IMG/VR virus record: IMGVR_UViG_3300017605_000348
Location: 1-43,321 of that record
Strand: one strand, 5' to 3'
Origin: a virus
Length of the DNA: 43,321 bases
The position numbers and the translations under genes are program-made. Of this stretch, positions 3,738 through 30,908 are shown in pieces. The notes beneath the pieces are model-generated. The model searched no databases, was not told the origin of the DNA, and saw only the letters and a list, made by a program, of their open reading frames with translations. Position 1 is the stretch's first letter, and every line of letters begins with the position of its first letter.

Positions 3738-4705
3738 TGGCCGTTTCCGACAAGGCGCAACTTGGTGCCAAGACTGAGACCACTTACGGCACGGCCGTGG
3801 TTGTCGACAAGTTCTTCGATTACGTGTCGGAGTCCGCTGCCTTCGAGCAGACCCGCATCGAGTCGAGTTCGCTCCGCGCGCAGAGCCGGGTCATCACCAC
3901 TGACAACTGGGCCCTGGGCAAGCAGGCCATCGCGGGTGACTTCGACATGGAGCTACGGCCGAAGGGCCACGCGTTCTGGCTGGCGCACGCGATCGGTGCC
4001 GCTGTGTCCACTCAGCCGGACGCCGCTGGCAACCCGACGGTCTACAAGCACACCATCACGCCGGCCGCGCTGCCCCAGAGCTTCACGCTCCAGTTGGCCA
4101 AGCCGGACATCGCTGACGTTGCCACGCCGTTCACCTACGGCGGGTGCCGGATCAGCGAGTGGGAGCTGTCCTGTGGGATCGACGAGTTCGCCCACCTGAA
4201 GTTCGGCTTCCTCGGGCAGACCGAGGCCACGGCCACCGCGCTAGCAGTCGCGTCGTATCCGACAGGCAACAAACCGTATACCTTCGTCCAGGGGACCGTC
4301 ACGATCGCCGGGTCTGCCGCTGACGTCAAGTCGCTGAGCCTCAAGGGTTCCAACAACTTGACCGACGACCGGTACTTCCTGGGCTCGGCGCTGCGCAAGC
4401 GTCCGGAGGAGAACGCCCTCCGTGAGTACACAGGCACGTTCGACAGCGAGTTCTCCGGGCTGACGCAGTACAACCGGTTCGTGTCGGGCGCTGAGGCCGC
4501 GATCGTGCTGCTGTTCCAGGGCGCGACGATCTCCACCACGTACAAGTACGAGTGCAAGGTCACGCTGAACGTTCGCTTCGACGGCGAGACCCCGAAGGTG
4601 GGGGGCCCGGAGATCGTGGGCCAGCCCATCCCGTTCAAGGTCATCAACGACGGCACGACCTCCATCAAGATCGAGTACCAAAGCACTGACATCACCGCCG
4701 CGTGA
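3737..4705 (+). CDS. major tail (tube) protein
   Basis: A 322-residue protein, beta-rich throughout, with regular Gly/Thr/Ser-rich strands and very few Cys, as in siphovirus tail tube subunits. It would polymerise around the tape measure protein. The order capsid, connectors, terminator, tail tube, chaperones, tape measure is canonical and supports the call. The last 80 residues look like a separate immunoglobulin-like or tube-peripheral lobe. It starts at ATG in a TGATG overlap with the preceding gene. It is longer than the smallest tube proteins, which is common in actinophages. Confidence 0.78.
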   Translation: MAVSDKAQLGAKTETTYGTAVVVDKFFDYVSESAAFEQTRIESSSLRAQSRVITTDNWALGKQAIAGDFDMELRPKGHAFWLAHAIGAAVSTQPDAAGNPTVYKHTITPAALPQSFTLQLAKPDIADVATPFTYGGCRISEWELSCGIDEFAHLKFGFLGQTEATATALAVASYPTGNKPYTFVQGTVTIAGSAADVKSLSLKGSNNLTDDRYFLGSALRKRPEENALREYTGTFDSEFSGLTQYNRFVSGAEAAIVLLFQGATISTTYKYECKVTLNVRFDGETPKVGGPEIVGQPIPFKVINDGTTSIKIEYQSTDITAA

Positions 4706-23528: not shown

Positions 23529-24349
23529 CCGACCTAGATTTGGGTGAGGTCATGGCCGCGCGGAAGGCTAGGCCCCTCTCCGGGAACACGGCCTGGGCTT
23601 CCGACTACGCGATCAACACCTTGCGCAGGGTCGTCGTCGAGCACGCCTCCCAGGCGCCCCGTTCGCTACAGCGCCACCTCGGGCCGTCGGAGTTGGGCCA
23701 CGAATGCGATCGTCAGGTCGTCGCGAAGATGGCGAACGTACCGGGTACCAACCACGTGCTCGACCCCTGGGCGTCCATCATGGGCACCGCAATGCACATC
23801 TGGCTCGCCGACGCCTTCTCGGCTGACAACACCCGGTCGGGGGTCGCGCGGTGGCTAACCGAGTTCCGCGTCACACCCAAGCCGCTGAGCAACGACGGCA
23901 CCGGAGACCTCTACGACGTACAGACCCGCTCGGTCGTAGACCACAAGGGGCAGGGAGACACATCCCGCGCCAAGCTCATCAAGTACGGCCCGCCTCTGCA
24001 CTATCGGGTTCAGCTCAAGTTGTATGGGCTGGGCTTCCGCGTGCTCGGACTGCCTGTCGAGCGGATCGTCATCGCCAGCTGGCCGCGCACGAAGTCCAGC
24101 CTCGACGCCCTGTACGTCTGGGAAGCCCCGTTCGAGGAAGATGACGAAGAGCTGGCCTGGGTGTTCAAGAAGACCCCCGAGCGCGAGGCGTTGGCCAAGA
24201 TGGTCGCCGCCGGCCAGCTCACCATCAACCAGGTGAAGGCGACGCCATCGGACGCTGACTGCATCTGGTGCCCGATTTTTCGTCCACAAGCAGTCGATGG
24301 GGGGCCTGGTTGTCCGGGAACGAAGCTACGAAACCCAGGCGCCGCCTGA
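23525..24349 (+). CDS. Cas4/AddB-like PD-(D/E)XK nuclease with iron-sulfur cysteines
   Basis: A 274-residue nuclease of the RecB/Cas4 superfamily. Visible features: G-T-A-M-H with His91, Asp128 (G-D-L-Y-D), and the core D-H-K (Asp139-x-Lys141). Four cysteines match the iron-sulfur 'staple': Cys61 (H-E-C-D-R) plus Cys246, Cys249 and Cys263. Such proteins cut DNA ends or ssDNA and often aid phage recombination. GTG 23525 lies in a GTGA overlap; ATG 23552 is possible. The 3' end overlaps the HNH gene by 82 bp, unusually long here. Confidence 0.8.
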   Translation: MTDLDLGEVMAARKARPLSGNTAWASDYAINTLRRVVVEHASQAPRSLQRHLGPSELGHECDRQVVAKMANVPGTNHVLDPWASIMGTAMHIWLADAFSADNTRSGVARWLTEFRVTPKPLSNDGTGDLYDVQTRSVVDHKGQGDTSRAKLIKYGPPLHYRVQLKLYGLGFRVLGLPVERIVIASWPRTKSSLDALYVWEAPFEEDDEELAWVFKKTPEREALAKMVAAGQLTINQVKATPSDADCIWCPIFRPQAVDGGPGCPGTKLRNPGAA

Positions 24350-24870
24350 CTGCCCTGGAAAGGCTCTTGGCCTCTCTAGTGTTGGAGGAGTCAGGGTGCT
24401 GGCTGTGGAGCGGGCAAACGGACCGCGCGGGGTACGCCCGGTTCAGCGTCCAGGGGAGGCACGTCTACGTCCACCGCTGGTCCTACGAGTACCACCTTGG
24501 CCCGATACCTGAGGGCTTGGTGCTCGACCACCTGTGTAGGACACGGAACTGCGCCAACCCGTACCACCTGGAGCCCGTGACGCAGGCCGAGAACATGGCT
24601 CGCGGTGTCGTCGCTACGAAGACCCACTGCAAGGCGGGACACCCGCTGGTCCAGGTCGAGCACAAGGAAGGCCGTAGGCGGGTGTGCCCGGTCTGCAAGC
24701 GGGCGTCCGCTCGGGCTAGCTATCAGCGCCGTCGGCCCGAAGCCCTGGAGTACCAGCGGCAGTACTACTCCGAGCACCGCGACGAGATCCGGGCCTACCA
24801 GAACGGGCGTCCCCGGAGAACCAGCCGTCCACAAGCGGCTGATGGTGTGACCCCGGATGCCCCGGCATGA
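24268..24870 (+). CDS. HNH endonuclease (HNH_3 type)
   Basis: A 200-residue homing-type HNH nuclease. C-W-L-W (near 44-47) begins a common N-terminal beta domain, and L-D-H-L-C-R-T-R-N-C-A-N-P-Y-H-L is the H-N-H core (near 86-101). A second Cys/His cluster (T-H-C-K-A-G-H and C-P-V-C-K, 118-143) should bind zinc. The end is basic and disordered. The true start is uncertain: GTG 24268 lies inside the nuclease gene, while GTG 24379 would remove part of the expected N-terminus. Possibly an intron-less homing gene inserted here. Confidence 0.85.
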   Translation: MPDFSSTSSRWGAWLSGNEATKPRRRLTALERLLASLVLEESGCWLWSGQTDRAGYARFSVQGRHVYVHRWSYEYHLGPIPEGLVLDHLCRTRNCANPYHLEPVTQAENMARGVVATKTHCKAGHPLVQVEHKEGRRRVCPVCKRASARASYQRRRPEALEYQRQYYSEHRDEIRAYQNGRPRRTSRPQAADGVTPDAPA

Positions 24871-25986: not shown

Positions 25987-26934
25987 GTGAAGCACGGCTC
26001 ACTGTGTACAGGCTACGGCGGACTCGACATGGCCGCACAGACCATCTTCGGCGGCGGGCTGGCTTGGGTGTCCGACATCGACCCCGGACCGATCGCCCTC
26101 CTGGCCCACCACCACCCCGACGTCCCGAACCTCGGCGACCTCAAGGTCATCAACTGGGCAACCGTCGAGCCCGTTGACATCCTCACGGCCGGCTACCCCT
26201 GCCAGCCCTTCAGCAACGCCGGACTCCGAAAGGGCACCGATGACCCCCGACACCTCTGGCCCTGGATCGCCACCGCCGTTGGCGTACTTCGACCCCGAGT
26301 CGTACTCCTGGAAAACGTCGCCTCCCACCTCCGGAAAGGCTTCGAAGTCGTTCTCGCGGACCTTGCCGCCCTCGGGTACGACGTCGCGTGGTCTGTTGTT
26401 CGCGCTTCCGACGTTGGCGCCCCTCACCAACGGTCCCGCCTCTACGTCGTTGCGACTGCTCAAGACTCCGACCTCGAACCTCGGATCGAACGGGGGACCC
26501 CAGCACCCGGACAAGCGGAAAGCGGGCGGACACGGACCGACGCTGGAGGACGAGGTGTACGCGATGTCCTTGTTCCCGACGCCGAGAGCCTCGGACGGGG
26601 AGAAGGGCGGACCGAACCAGCGGGGGTCGAGCGGGGATCCGATGCTGCCTACGATCGTGAACCGATTGACTGGCAAGAGTTCGAACCCGCCATCCGCCGA
26701 TGGGAACGCCGCCTAGGTCGTCCGACCCCGGCTCCCTCGGTGCTCGGTCCACGCGGTGGCGTGAAGGTGGCCCCGGCGTTCGGAGAATGGCTGATGGGCC
26801 TGCCCGAAGGACACATCACCGGCGTACCCGGACTGTCGATCAACGAGCAACTGAAGCTCGTCGGCAACGGCGTCGTCCCTCAGCAGGCCGAACACGCCAT
26901 CCGGTACCTGGCCGGAGAGCTGGGGTTGTTGTGA
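25987..26934 (+). CDS. DNA (cytosine-5-)methyltransferase
   Basis: A 315-residue C5-type DNA methyltransferase. Motif I is G-Y-G-G-L-D (9-14), motif IV is P-C-Q-P-F with catalytic Cys72, motif VI is E-N-V (109-111), motif VIII is Q-R-S-R-L-Y-V-V, and motif X is G-N-G-V-V-P near 291-296. It methylates C5 of cytosine, probably to evade host restriction. The target recognition region (about 160-235) is short and is coded in DNA that also contains an open second frame (see the overlapping gene). GTG start; AGAAGGA lies seven bases upstream. The next gene starts within its last four bases. Confidence 0.92.
   Translation: MKHGSLCTGYGGLDMAAQTIFGGGLAWVSDIDPGPIALLAHHHPDVPNLGDLKVINWATVEPVDILTAGYPCQPFSNAGLRKGTDDPRHLWPWIATAVGVLRPRVVLLENVASHLRKGFEVVLADLAALGYDVAWSVVRASDVGAPHQRSRLYVVATAQDSDLEPRIERGTPAPGQAESGRTRTDAGGRGVRDVLVPDAESLGRGEGRTEPAGVERGSDAAYDREPIDWQEFEPAIRRWERRLGRPTPAPSVLGPRGGVKVAPAFGEWLMGLPEGHITGVPGLSINEQLKLVGNGVVPQQAEHAIRYLAGELGLL
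26240..26716 (+). CDS. possible overlapping gene inside the cytosine methyltransferase
   Basis: In the +1 frame relative to the methyltransferase an ORF runs to 26716. ATG 26240 has GAAAGGG five bases upstream, giving 158 residues; the frame itself is open from TTG 26174. The product shows features familiar from phage methylase-linked proteins (from memory): Y-F-D-P-E-S-Y-S-W-K-T-S (near 17-28), a T-L-P-x-S-G-T-T stretch, and L-F-P-T-P-R-A-S-D-G-E-K-G-G-P-N near 111-126. Long chance ORFs are common in GC-rich DNA, so the ORF alone proves little; the ribosome site and recognisable motifs raise its odds. Confidence 0.45.
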   Translation: MTPDTSGPGSPPPLAYFDPESYSWKTSPPTSGKASKSFSRTLPPSGTTSRGLLFALPTLAPLTNGPASTSLRLLKTPTSNLGSNGGPQHPDKRKAGGHGPTLEDEVYAMSLFPTPRASDGEKGGPNQRGSSGDPMLPTIVNRLTGKSSNPPSADGNAA

Positions 26935-27377
26935 GGTCAGTACCTATCCACGGGGAGCTGACCGAAGACGGACGCCGGGTCGTGCTCATGGCCGCGGGGA
27001 TGTTCGCCGACGATGTCGAGCGGGTCGGCCGGCAACTCGGCCTGCTCACCCCTACGCCGAAGCCCACCGAGCCCAAGGGCGGCATCAGCTTCCCCGTCTC
27101 CTGGGCGCTGTGCGTTCAGTTGGCCATGACGTTCGGTTCCTCCTGGCACCCCGGCCCCCGGCTCAAGGCGTGGATCCTCGACCAGGTCCAGCGGCGCTCG
27201 TTCGAGTCGGCCCCCCTCACGATCTCGCTGCCCGACGGCTTGGTGCCCCGCCCCTACCAGGTGGACGGCGCCCAGATGATCGCGGTCCAGGGGTCATGCC
27301 TCATCACCGACGAGCCCGGGACCGGCAAGACCATCACCACGATCCTTGGCCTGCTCGAACGGGCCTCAACTTCCTGA
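26931..27377 (+). CDS. SNF2-type helicase, N-terminal part (motif I only)
   Basis: A 148-residue protein starting at GTG in a GTGA overlap with the methyltransferase. It carries R-P-Y-Q-V-D-G-A near 105-112 (Q-motif region) and a P-loop G-T-G-K-T (130-134), then ends soon after L-G-L-L-E-R-A-S. The remaining helicase motifs are absent but appear at the start of the gene at 28131, after the inserted adenine methyltransferase. It is therefore the first piece of a split helicase. Whether the halves assemble is unknown. Confidence 0.8.
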   Translation: MRSVPIHGELTEDGRRVVLMAAGMFADDVERVGRQLGLLTPTPKPTEPKGGISFPVSWALCVQLAMTFGSSWHPGPRLKAWILDQVQRRSFESAPLTISLPDGLVPRPYQVDGAQMIAVQGSCLITDEPGTGKTITTILGLLERASTS

Positions 27378-27393
27378 AGGGACAGAGGCAAAT

Positions 27394-28134
27394 ATGCGCT
27401 ACATGGGCGGCAAGAGCCGACAGGCCAAGCACCTCGCTGAGATCATCAATGCGTACGCCTCGACGGCCACCGCCTACTACGAGCCGTTCCTCGGTGGGGG
27501 CTCGGTGTTCGAGCTGGTGGCCCCGAAGGTTCCCCGCCCCTTCGCGTCCGATGTGCACCCTGACCTGATGCTGATGTGGCAGGCCCTCCTTGACGGCTGG
27601 CAGCCCCCCGAAGCCGTGTCCCGTGAGGAGTACGCAGAGCTGAAGTCGGCTGAGCCGTCGGCGCTTCGTGGCTTCGTCGGGTTTGGTTGTTCGTTCGGCG
27701 GGAAGTGGTTCGGTGGCTACGCCACGTCCCGGGGGGACGACTACTGTGGAGCGGCCCTGCGTGGTGCCCTGCGTAAGACGGCGGCTATGCGCGAGGGAGG
27801 CGCCCGGCTGGCCCTCCGGAGTTACGCGGATATAGACCCCGAGCCGGGCGCCCTCATCTACTGCGACCCTCCGTATGCCGGCACCACGAAGTACACAGGC
27901 ATCGATGCGTTCGACCACGGGGGGTTCTGGGACAGGGTAGTCGACTGGGCCATTGCTGGTGCCACGGTGCTTATCAGCGAGTACGACGCGCCCGCTGGTC
28001 CGGTCTGTGTCTGGCAGAACGCAGCCAAGAAGTCCCTTTCCAAGGGCACCAACACCGCGCCCTCCGTGGAGCGGCTCTACGCCGTCGGGGGCGGAACGTT
28101 CACCCGGGCGCTGTCGGGTCTGGTGGCGGCATGA
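27394..28134 (+). CDS. DNA N6-adenine methyltransferase, D12 class (Dam-like)
   Basis: A 246-residue Dam-type methyltransferase. It has the N-terminal R-Y-M-G-G-K-S motif (2-8), motif I Y-E-P-F-L-G-G-G-S (about 33-41) and motif IV D-P-P-Y at 158-161. It transfers a methyl group to N6 of adenine, possibly GATC-like, though the target is not readable. AGAGG lies six bases before ATG. The gene sits exactly between the two halves of the SNF2 helicase and overlaps the second half by four bases, so it seems to have been inserted into a formerly continuous gene. Confidence 0.9.
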   Translation: MRYMGGKSRQAKHLAEIINAYASTATAYYEPFLGGGSVFELVAPKVPRPFASDVHPDLMLMWQALLDGWQPPEAVSREEYAELKSAEPSALRGFVGFGCSFGGKWFGGYATSRGDDYCGAALRGALRKTAAMREGGARLALRSYADIDPEPGALIYCDPPYAGTTKYTGIDAFDHGGFWDRVVDWAIAGATVLISEYDAPAGPVCVWQNAAKKSLSKGTNTAPSVERLYAVGGGTFTRALSGLVAA

Positions 28135-29474
28135 CCTCCACCTTCCCCGTCGTCGTCATCTGCCCAGCGTCCGTCATGGACCCCTGGGTGCGCGCCTGGC
28201 AGGCCTGGGCCCCGCACCTGCGCACGGTGGCGTGGCGGGGCACTCCGGATCGCAGGCGGCAACTGAGCGGCGCTGCTGACGTGTACGTGGTCAGCTATGA
28301 CACGGCCACCCGCGACATCGGCACCGTCGCCAAGCCCGGCCCGCTGCTCAAGATGGCACCAGCCAGCCTCGTGCTCGACGAGTGCCACCTGATCAAGAAC
28401 CCCAACTCGAAGCGGTCCACCCACGTTCGACGGCTGGCGAGCAAGGCGGGCACCGTGGTCGCGCTGTCCGGTACGCCCATCACCCACAACCCGAGCGACC
28501 TCTGGCCCACCCTGGTAGCGCTCGACGGCGACGCCTGGCCCGCTCGGGAACGCTGGGTCAACCGCTACTGCGAGACCGTGCCCGGAGACTACTCGGACAA
28601 GATCCTTGGGCTCGACCCGGACCGGGAGCCGGAGTTCCGTACCGCGCTGCTCGGCCAACACCGGCGGGTGGCTAAGGCGGACGTGCTAGACCAGTTGCCC
28701 CCCAAGGTGTACAGCACCCGAGAGGTCGAGCTGCCCGCCGGGTACCGCAAGGCGTACGACGACCTTGAGCGGGACATGTTCGCTAGGATGCCAGACGGCC
28801 AGGAGCTCGGCGCCGGTCTGATCCTCACGGTCATGGGGCAACTGTCCCTGATCGCCAGCGCGGCGGCCGACGTCGAGGTCACCTACACGCCAGAGCTGGA
28901 CGAGCAGGGAGTTCCGACAGGGCTCCAGAAGCCGCACTATCACGTCGAACTGAAGGCCCCTAGCTGGAAGGTCGACGCTCTGCTTGAGGTGCTGGAGGAG
29001 CGGCCCGCCAAGCAAACGGTCGTGTTCGCGCCGTCCAAGCAGCTCATCATGCTGGCTGGGCAGGCGGCCACCGCGGCGGGTTACCGGGTCGGCTACATCG
29101 TCGGCGGCCAGTCGCCCAAGGCACGCACGGCCACAGTGGACAGCTTCCAGGCGGGCGGGCTCGACGTCATCTGCGTCACGACCCAAGCCGGGGGAGTGGG
29201 CATCACCCTCACCGCGGCGAGCACGGCCGTCTTCCTTCAGCGGCCTTGGTCCCTTGTGGACGCTCTCCAGGGCGAGGACCGGCTGCACCGGATCGGCGCC
29301 GAGCACCACGAGTGCATCGAGATCATCGACATCGTCGCGTCCAACACGATCGACAGCCGGGTCCGCACCATGCTCCGCGAGAAGGCGGGACAACTGGCCG
29401 ACCTAGTCCAGGACCCCCGGATCGTGGCCGAGCTACTCGGTGGCGAGTCCGTTACCCAGCAGGGGAAGAAATGA
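28131..29474 (+). CDS. SNF2-type helicase, C-terminal part (motifs Ia-VI)
   Basis: A 447-residue protein starting in an ATGA overlap. It begins directly with motif Ia (V-V-V-I-C-P-A-S), then D-E-C-H (83-86, Walker B), S-G-T-P-I (motif III), V-V-F-A-P (motif IV), T-T-Q-A-G-G-V-G-I-T-L-T (motif V) and Q-G-E-D-R-L-H-R-I-G (motif VI). These are SNF2/DEAD-like ATPase motifs; the family acts as translocases or helicases on DNA. Motif I is missing here and lies in the gene at 26931-27377. It needs that part to bind ATP. Confidence 0.9.
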   Translation: MTSTFPVVVICPASVMDPWVRAWQAWAPHLRTVAWRGTPDRRRQLSGAADVYVVSYDTATRDIGTVAKPGPLLKMAPASLVLDECHLIKNPNSKRSTHVRRLASKAGTVVALSGTPITHNPSDLWPTLVALDGDAWPARERWVNRYCETVPGDYSDKILGLDPDREPEFRTALLGQHRRVAKADVLDQLPPKVYSTREVELPAGYRKAYDDLERDMFARMPDGQELGAGLILTVMGQLSLIASAAADVEVTYTPELDEQGVPTGLQKPHYHVELKAPSWKVDALLEVLEERPAKQTVVFAPSKQLIMLAGQAATAAGYRVGYIVGGQSPKARTATVDSFQAGGLDVICVTTQAGGVGITLTAASTAVFLQRPWSLVDALQGEDRLHRIGAEHHECIEIIDIVASNTIDSRVRTMLREKAGQLADLVQDPRIVAELLGGESVTQQGKK

Positions 29475-29867: not shown

Positions 29868-30908
29868 TTGCTAATCGCGTTAGTACCTGCCCATAACGAA
29901 GCACGCAACATAACCAACGCGATTAGCGGACTGGCGGCACAGTCTGTTGTCCCGGACAAGGTCGTAGTCGTAGCGGACAACTGCACCGACGACACTGCCG
30001 ATATAGCACGAGCCAATGGCGCGCAAGTGTTCGCGACCGTTGACAACACGCACAAGAAAGCGGGGGCGCTTAACCAGGCTCTCGCTTGGCTGCTACCCCA
30101 ACTGGCACTCGACGACGTGGTCCTGGTGCAAGACGCGGACAGCGTCCTAGACGAGGGTTTCATCGCCACCGGGCAGTCCTACCTAGCCAAGGGCTTTGAC
30201 GCTGTCGGCGGGGTGTTCAGGGGCGAGGCGGGGCACGGTCTGCTGGGGATGCTCCAACGCAACGAGTACATGCGCTACGCCCGAGATCTGTCACGCAAGC
30301 CTCACGTGATGGTGCTATCCGGTACGGCCTCCATGTTCACCAGCGCCACACTCCAGGCGGTCAGTCAGGCGCGGCAGAGTGGCGCGTTGCCAACAGGTGA
30401 CGGCGTCTACGACACGTCCGCCTTGACCGAGGACAACGAGCTGACCTTGGCGCTGAAGACGCTGGGTCTCCGGCTCGCGAGTCCGGCCGAGTGTGGCGTG
30501 CGTACGGAACTCATGCCTACGTGGCGCGCGTTGTGGAAGCAAAGAATCCGCTGGCAACGGGGCGCGCTGGAGAACATCAGGCAGTATGGCTTCAACAAAG
30601 TCACCAGACCTTACTTCGCACAGCAACTGGGTATGGCTGTTGGTGTGACCGCGATGGTGCTCTACCTCGGTATGTCGCTGATTACCTTTGTTCTGCTTGA
30701 CCTGCCGCTCACGGCCAGTCCTTTTTGGTCGGTCGTCGGGCTGGTGTTCGTCGTGGAGAGAGTGAGCACGGTCAAAGGGTGGGGGCCTAAAGCTCTGGCC
30801 TTCTTGATGATTGTCGAAATGGTTTACGACCTGTTCCAGATGGGCGTGTTCGTGGCCAGCGTTACGCAGATCATATTCAAGCGTGAGGCTAAGTGGTCTC
30901 ATCTGTAA
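29868..30908 (+). CDS. membrane glycosyltransferase, family 2 (processive type)
   Basis: A 346-residue GT-A glycosyltransferase. D-N-C-T-D-D (37-42), D-A-D (89-91), T-E-D (187-189) and Q-R-I-R-W (225-229) are the motifs of processive GT2 enzymes such as cellulose or hyaluronan synthases. Three hydrophobic segments follow (about 252-280, 286-296, 306-334). It would use a nucleotide sugar at the inner membrane, building or exporting a glycan. TTG 29868 follows GTAGGAG. The codons are visibly less GC-rich than in neighbouring genes, suggesting transfer. It heads a three-gene group with two tiny membrane proteins. Confidence 0.88.
   Translation: MLIALVPAHNEARNITNAISGLAAQSVVPDKVVVVADNCTDDTADIARANGAQVFATVDNTHKKAGALNQALAWLLPQLALDDVVLVQDADSVLDEGFIATGQSYLAKGFDAVGGVFRGEAGHGLLGMLQRNEYMRYARDLSRKPHVMVLSGTASMFTSATLQAVSQARQSGALPTGDGVYDTSALTEDNELTLALKTLGLRLASPAECGVRTELMPTWRALWKQRIRWQRGALENIRQYGFNKVTRPYFAQQLGMAVGVTAMVLYLGMSLITFVLLDLPLTASPFWSVVGLVFVVERVSTVKGWGPKALAFLMIVEMVYDLFQMGVFVASVTQIIFKREAKWSHL

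Follow-up and report, generated by a model that had tools for sequence, protein, structure and literature searches.

Phage enzymes encoded in pieces are mainly known as products of homing-endonuclease insertion. According to the review PMC2988022, nrdA of Aeromonas phage Aeh1 is split by mobE, an HNH homing endonuclease, and its pieces form an active enzyme; T4 gene 60 is split by mobA; and the halves of gene 43 are separated by seg43 in phage 25 and by an untranslated spacer in 44RR, with the phage 25 halves co-purifying with polymerase activity. Here we analyze a gene for a SNF2-type ATPase in the virus record IMGVR_UViG_3300017605_000348, whose entire 43,321 bases we call the window and which includes head, tail, lysis, integrase, primase-polymerase, DNA polymerase, and terminase genes. 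The SNF2 gene is interrupted between motif I and motif Ia, a cut that runs through the ATP-site lobe, and the interruption is filled by a complete D12 adenine methyltransferase gene. In a sister phage, IMGVR_UViG_3300036853_000124, which is syntenic with the window (∼69–93% identity across many blocks), the helicase is cut at the same codons, and the slot holds a 112-residue open reading frame (ORF) unrelated to the methyltransferase. Our best reading, which we regard as likely, is a two-chain split ATPase in which the cut serves as a translationally coupled passenger slot; assembly of the chains, their ATPase activity, and the coupling are what we infer.

The window gene resembles Aeh1 nrdA in that another, complete gene interrupts a phage enzyme at a functionally critical site while both pieces are retained. 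The two differ in the interrupter, which is an HNH homing endonuclease in Aeh1 (PMC2988022) but a methyltransferase in the window and the 112-residue ORF in the sister; enzyme activity has been shown for the Aeh1 pieces and is predicted for those of the window. Gene 43 of phages 25 and 44RR is alike in that related phages carry differing material between the halves of a split enzyme. The material there is an endonuclease or a non-coding spacer (PMC2988022), whereas the window and sister carry two unrelated protein-coding passengers between shared junction signals. The locus agrees with genes-in-pieces insofar as a complete gene interrupts what is continuous in the relatives and both pieces are kept. 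Its interrupter was not recognised as a homing endonuclease in either phage, being a D12 methyltransferase in one and, in the other, an ORF without a PHROG match or a Pfam match above the cut-off. Because the defining endonuclease was looked for and not found, we set this locus apart from the homing-endonuclease genes-in-pieces. Fractured genes of another kind, reportedly described by Dassa in 2009, combine split inteins with a free-standing endonuclease, so that a gene in two pieces has another gene between them; the window differs from these in that its halves leave little space for an intein and no endonuclease was recognised. What distinguishes the locus from known split phage genes is the passenger without a recognised nuclease, the SNF2 target, and the conserved junction signals flanking unrelated genes. 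The open-access literature searched yielded no account of a split SNF2 helicase, nor one of a methyltransferase as passenger.

The split gene, its passenger, and the two junctions are arranged in the window as follows.

26931..27377, plus strand: N half of the SNF2-type ATPase, 148 residues, GTG start and TGA stop.
27375..27385, plus strand: left junction TGAAGGGACAG, comprising the N-half stop and a Shine-Dalgarno-like GAAGGGA for the passenger, identical in the sister.
27394..28134, plus strand: passenger, a D12-class N6-adenine DNA methyltransferase (PF02086), 246 residues, ATG start.
28129..28134, plus strand: right junction GCATGA, in which the passenger stop overlaps the C-half start (ATGA), with the sister arranged likewise.
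28131..29474, plus strand: C half of the SNF2-type ATPase (PF00176 and PF00271), 447 residues, ATG start.

The SNF2 ATPase motifs are present across the two halves. The N half consists of a family-specific N-terminal domain, motif I (the P-loop, GTGKT), and then a helix, and its C-terminal residues are DEPGTGKTITTILGLLERASTS; the C half begins with the motif Ia strand MTSTFPVVVICPASV, has motif II (DECH), and runs to motif VI (QGEDRLHRIG). GTGKT is the Walker A motif, DECH is a motif II of the DEAH type, and QGEDRLHRIG contains the arginines of motif VI. In Pfam, the C half matches PF00176 at 79.5 bits (profile positions 53–259 of 290) and PF00271 at 63.6 bits. The N half covers positions 17–36 of the SNF2 profile at just 13.8 bits, below the cut-off, and scores 203 bits against a profile built from relatives. 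Against the PHROG 62 helicases, the C half aligns from position 741 of 1881 and the N half just before it, at 668–732. These consecutive Pfam and PHROG positions indicate that the N and C halves are successive parts of one family, and the two lie in the same reading frame in window and sister alike. The methyltransferase scores 53.3 bits against PF02086 (cut-off 22), and its translation retains FLGGG and DPPY, the FxGxG and DPPY motifs of D12 enzymes, intact; from its family membership, it is probably an orphan methyltransferase of the anti-restriction type. Coordinates, Pfam, and PHROG thus bear out the sequence-only reading of this DNA, which had proposed a SNF2 helicase split between motifs I and Ia around a complete D12 methyltransferase gene.

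We compared the split gene with relatives by scanning viral contigs with each half and with an alignment of each; counts are of distinct sequences, L001–L025 and L100–L189, and the split-versus-intact survey covers viral contigs. Uninterrupted helicases, which the sequence-only reading had proposed to look for in related phages, are common: 53 distinct relatives carry the N and C profiles in a single ORF, 45 of them close (C-profile score at least 400 bits). The only ORFs with a C-profile score above 100 bits that lack the N profile are fragments of the sister and L120, which is truncated by the contig start, leaving the sister as the sole other split case in these scans. Once matches of insufficient length or truncated at a contig end had been set aside, alignment and single-protein scans gave no further split relatives beyond the sister, and two junction-shaped DNA patterns matched the sister only. 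With 53 intact relatives against two split ones, the split is therefore, by count, the derived state. In a midpoint-rooted tree of 33 intact rows plus the window and sister sequences, the latter two make up a single clade (100/100) inside the intact relatives, nearest to L101 and L104, with modest support for these neighbours. Nor does the window hold a second, intact SNF2 copy, the profiles of both halves finding one copy each; a complete helicase elsewhere is what the sequence-only reading had named as evidence against a split.

Intact phage SNF2 helicases (PHROG 62, for example the Haloactinopolyspora locus L189) share with the window gene the family, the N domain, and the SNF2 core, and differ in that both half-profiles lie within one ORF in all 53 distinct relatives. 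In bacterial genomes, a first contig scan found no copy and a second found one intact copy, in Haloactinopolyspora; matches were present in 2 of 396 genomes of its phylum, one of them that same Haloactinopolyspora genome, and both lie in long open frames. Gordonia phage Phendrix, where the match overlapped a GIY-YIG endonuclease, was considered as a split case and rejected: its helicase is intact, and the endonuclease comes after the helicase.

The junctions of the window are conserved in the sister around a different passenger. In the sister, ERASTS and a stop codon close the N half, GAAGGGACAG comes next as it does in the window, and the C half opens with the same GCATGAC junction. In both phages, the passenger begins at an ATG located 11 bases past the shared GAAGGGA, and the passenger stop overlaps the C-half start. 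The window's D12 methyltransferase has no significant match in the sister's 46,669-base record, and the sister's 112-residue ORF has none in the window; this ORF gave no Pfam match above the cut-off, no PHROG match, and no relative in the phage or viral-contig collections. Since the same cut holds a different passenger in each phage, the split is old and the passenger exchangeable. The gene before the N half has been swapped as well, the sister having a different, shorter C5-type gene that likewise overlaps the N half by 4 bases. No SNF2 copy was found in the sister besides the split one, whose C half spans the contig ends. These ends (L001, L013) overlap by ∼250 bases within the C half, with 1 mismatch in 252 bases compared, as if a circular genome had been opened there.

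Both halves are under strong purifying selection between window and sister. For the N half, the synonymous divergence (dS) is 0.42 and the non-synonymous divergence (dN) 0.08, giving a dN/dS of 0.19 (Fisher P = 1.6e-9); for the C half, the corresponding values are 0.51, 0.08, and 0.15 (Fisher P = 6e-35). Matching parts of intact pairs gave dN/dS values of 0.24–0.54 (N) and 0.16–0.38 (C) in nine hand-picked pairs, some with common members. At alignment columns that are invariant in 33 intact relatives, the two split phages both retain 9 of 9 residues in the N part and 63 of 64 in the C part. At its P-loop end, over the final 40 codons, the N half has 14 synonymous and 4 non-synonymous changes, with synonymous changes up to the penultimate codon. 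This pattern argues for a cut older than most of the divergence between the two phages and against its arrival through a recent exchange around it, short of two independent splits at one and the same codon.

The position of the cut was examined on the structure that AlphaFold2 predicts for L104, an intact relative (mean predicted local distance difference test score, pLDDT, 87.8), in which the motif I helix spans residues 137–152 and the next strand residues 160–164. When aligned onto this model, the split falls roughly where the motif I helix gives way to the loop that leads into the strand. Searched with Foldseek, this model matched SNF2-family remodelers, in line with expectation. The spacing from motif I to the C profile is 13–26 residues in 44 of the 45 close relatives and 56 in the remaining one (3300015374_000025), which carries an in-frame addition; the loop therefore tolerates insertions. 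This relative (L117; also L007, L163) is intact, and its addition of ∼40 residues, with a CxC motif and histidines, lies in the same loop, immediately ahead of where its C match begins at 4001. The short similar sequences flanking the insert (27364–27374 and 28135–28146), which the sequence-only reading had linked to a precise insertion, are at chance level: their best ungapped 12-mer agrees at 8 of 12 positions, a value that 39% of random pairs attain; 13% of random pairs attain the gapped score of 7, and nothing of the kind is present in the sister. A target-site duplication in the form of flanking direct repeats was accordingly rejected.

A two-chain ATPase would account for these observations in the following way. 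In an actinophage-like temperate phage, a gene encoding the SNF2-type ATPase as one chain was split at the loop of variable length that joins the motif I helix to the motif Ia strand, most likely in a single event in the ancestor shared by the window and its sister. The two chains would still be made and would most likely dock into one ATPase, the small chain contributing the P-loop and the large one motifs Ia–VI; reassembling split enzymes of other phages offer a precedent (PMC2988022). The N-half stop and its ribosome site would drive translation of whichever ORF occupies the slot, and, with the passenger TGA overlapping the C-half ATG, translation of the passenger would probably feed translation of the C half. 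Passengers have been exchanged with both halves retained. Of the two proposals in the sequence-only reading, a two-chain ATPase or a methyltransferase-helicase unit, the first is favored by the 53 whole relatives, by the lack of a complete copy in the window, and by the purifying selection, while the sister argues against the second.

Several observations weigh against this two-chain reading. The synonymous divergence is uneven, with a dS of 0.17 in the first 50 C-half codons and up to 0.8 elsewhere, and given this unevenness recombination may have occurred in the region, on the C-half side. The GC content at third codon positions is 0.67 in the sister passenger and ∼0.88–0.90 in the helicase halves, a weak coding composition; with this composition and no relatives in the collections searched, the 112-residue ORF may not be a functional gene. 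The C-half Shine-Dalgarno energies of −4.9 and −3.4 fall within the 25th–50th percentiles of random sites; such values suit translational coupling without proving it. Finally, only two split phages are known.

If the two chains do assemble, the locus would be a natural two-piece SNF2 motor, and the loop after motif I would be a split site already tested by nature. We suggest more tentatively, as a possibility about which we are doubtful, that a core enzyme has here been turned into a stable docking slot, its halves providing a ribosome site to the left and an ATGA coupling start to the right, in which an incoming ORF is expressed and is also needed for making the second half. Such a slot would shield the passenger from deletion and would permit swaps without a nuclease or other mobility gene in the slot. 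The locus also makes a general question testable: whether a broken core gene can act in phages as a protected slot for anti-restriction or accessory genes.

The two halves might instead act separately, without assembly, for example as DNA-binding proteins, one consisting of the N domain and the P-loop and the other of a SNF2 motor that lacks motif I. The model of the isolated C half (pLDDT 68.9, from 14 sequences) retains many core strands and helices, as this would lead one to expect; however, it is of low confidence at residues 113–130 and 132–186, though its alignment is shallower than that of the intact L104 model. Both phages have, moreover, maintained the P-loop together with the C-half ATP-site motifs, and we consider separate action unlikely.

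Decay is a much weaker explanation. Two split cases against 53 intact relatives are what might be seen if the helicase had been broken by the insertion and both pieces were drifting as pseudogenes, but dN/dS values of 0.19 and 0.15, the intact catalytic motifs, and the retention of both pieces through a dS of ∼0.45 make this very improbable. We give as little credence to a dedicated methylation-coupled machine built from the methyltransferase and the helicase halves, despite the adjacent, overlapping genes and the second methyltransferase just upstream: the sister has the same split around its own unrelated ORF, its record and the fetched flanks of intact relatives are without a match to the D12 methyltransferase, and relatives of the methyltransferase found elsewhere do not sit within this helicase, only five of those fetched having any C-half match, a distant one, in their fetched flanks.

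Removal of the insert from RNA as an intron, or from protein through a split intein, to yield one chain would suit the in-frame halves of both phages but is scarcely credible. RNA splicing is unlikely because no intron match was found in Rfam and the insert is almost wholly coding, the passenger ORF starting after a gap of just 16 bases from the N-half stop and leaving no gap before the C half; frame 0 of the insert also contains several stops. Inteins are likewise unlikely: in the alignment, each half has just a few extra residues at its cut end, which leaves little space for intein parts, and a Pfam scan of the halves found no intein sequence, no separate intein profile having been run.

The gene just before the split helicase is the second methyltransferase mentioned above.

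25987..26934, plus strand: C5-cytosine methyltransferase, with a 4-base overlap with the N half.

Its stop codon is overlapped by the GTG start of the N half. Further upstream, ∼2 kb from the split helicase, lies an HNH endonuclease gene (24268–24870), and a glycosyltransferase-like gene (PHROG 22973) is found at 29868–30908, inside the DNA-metabolism region.

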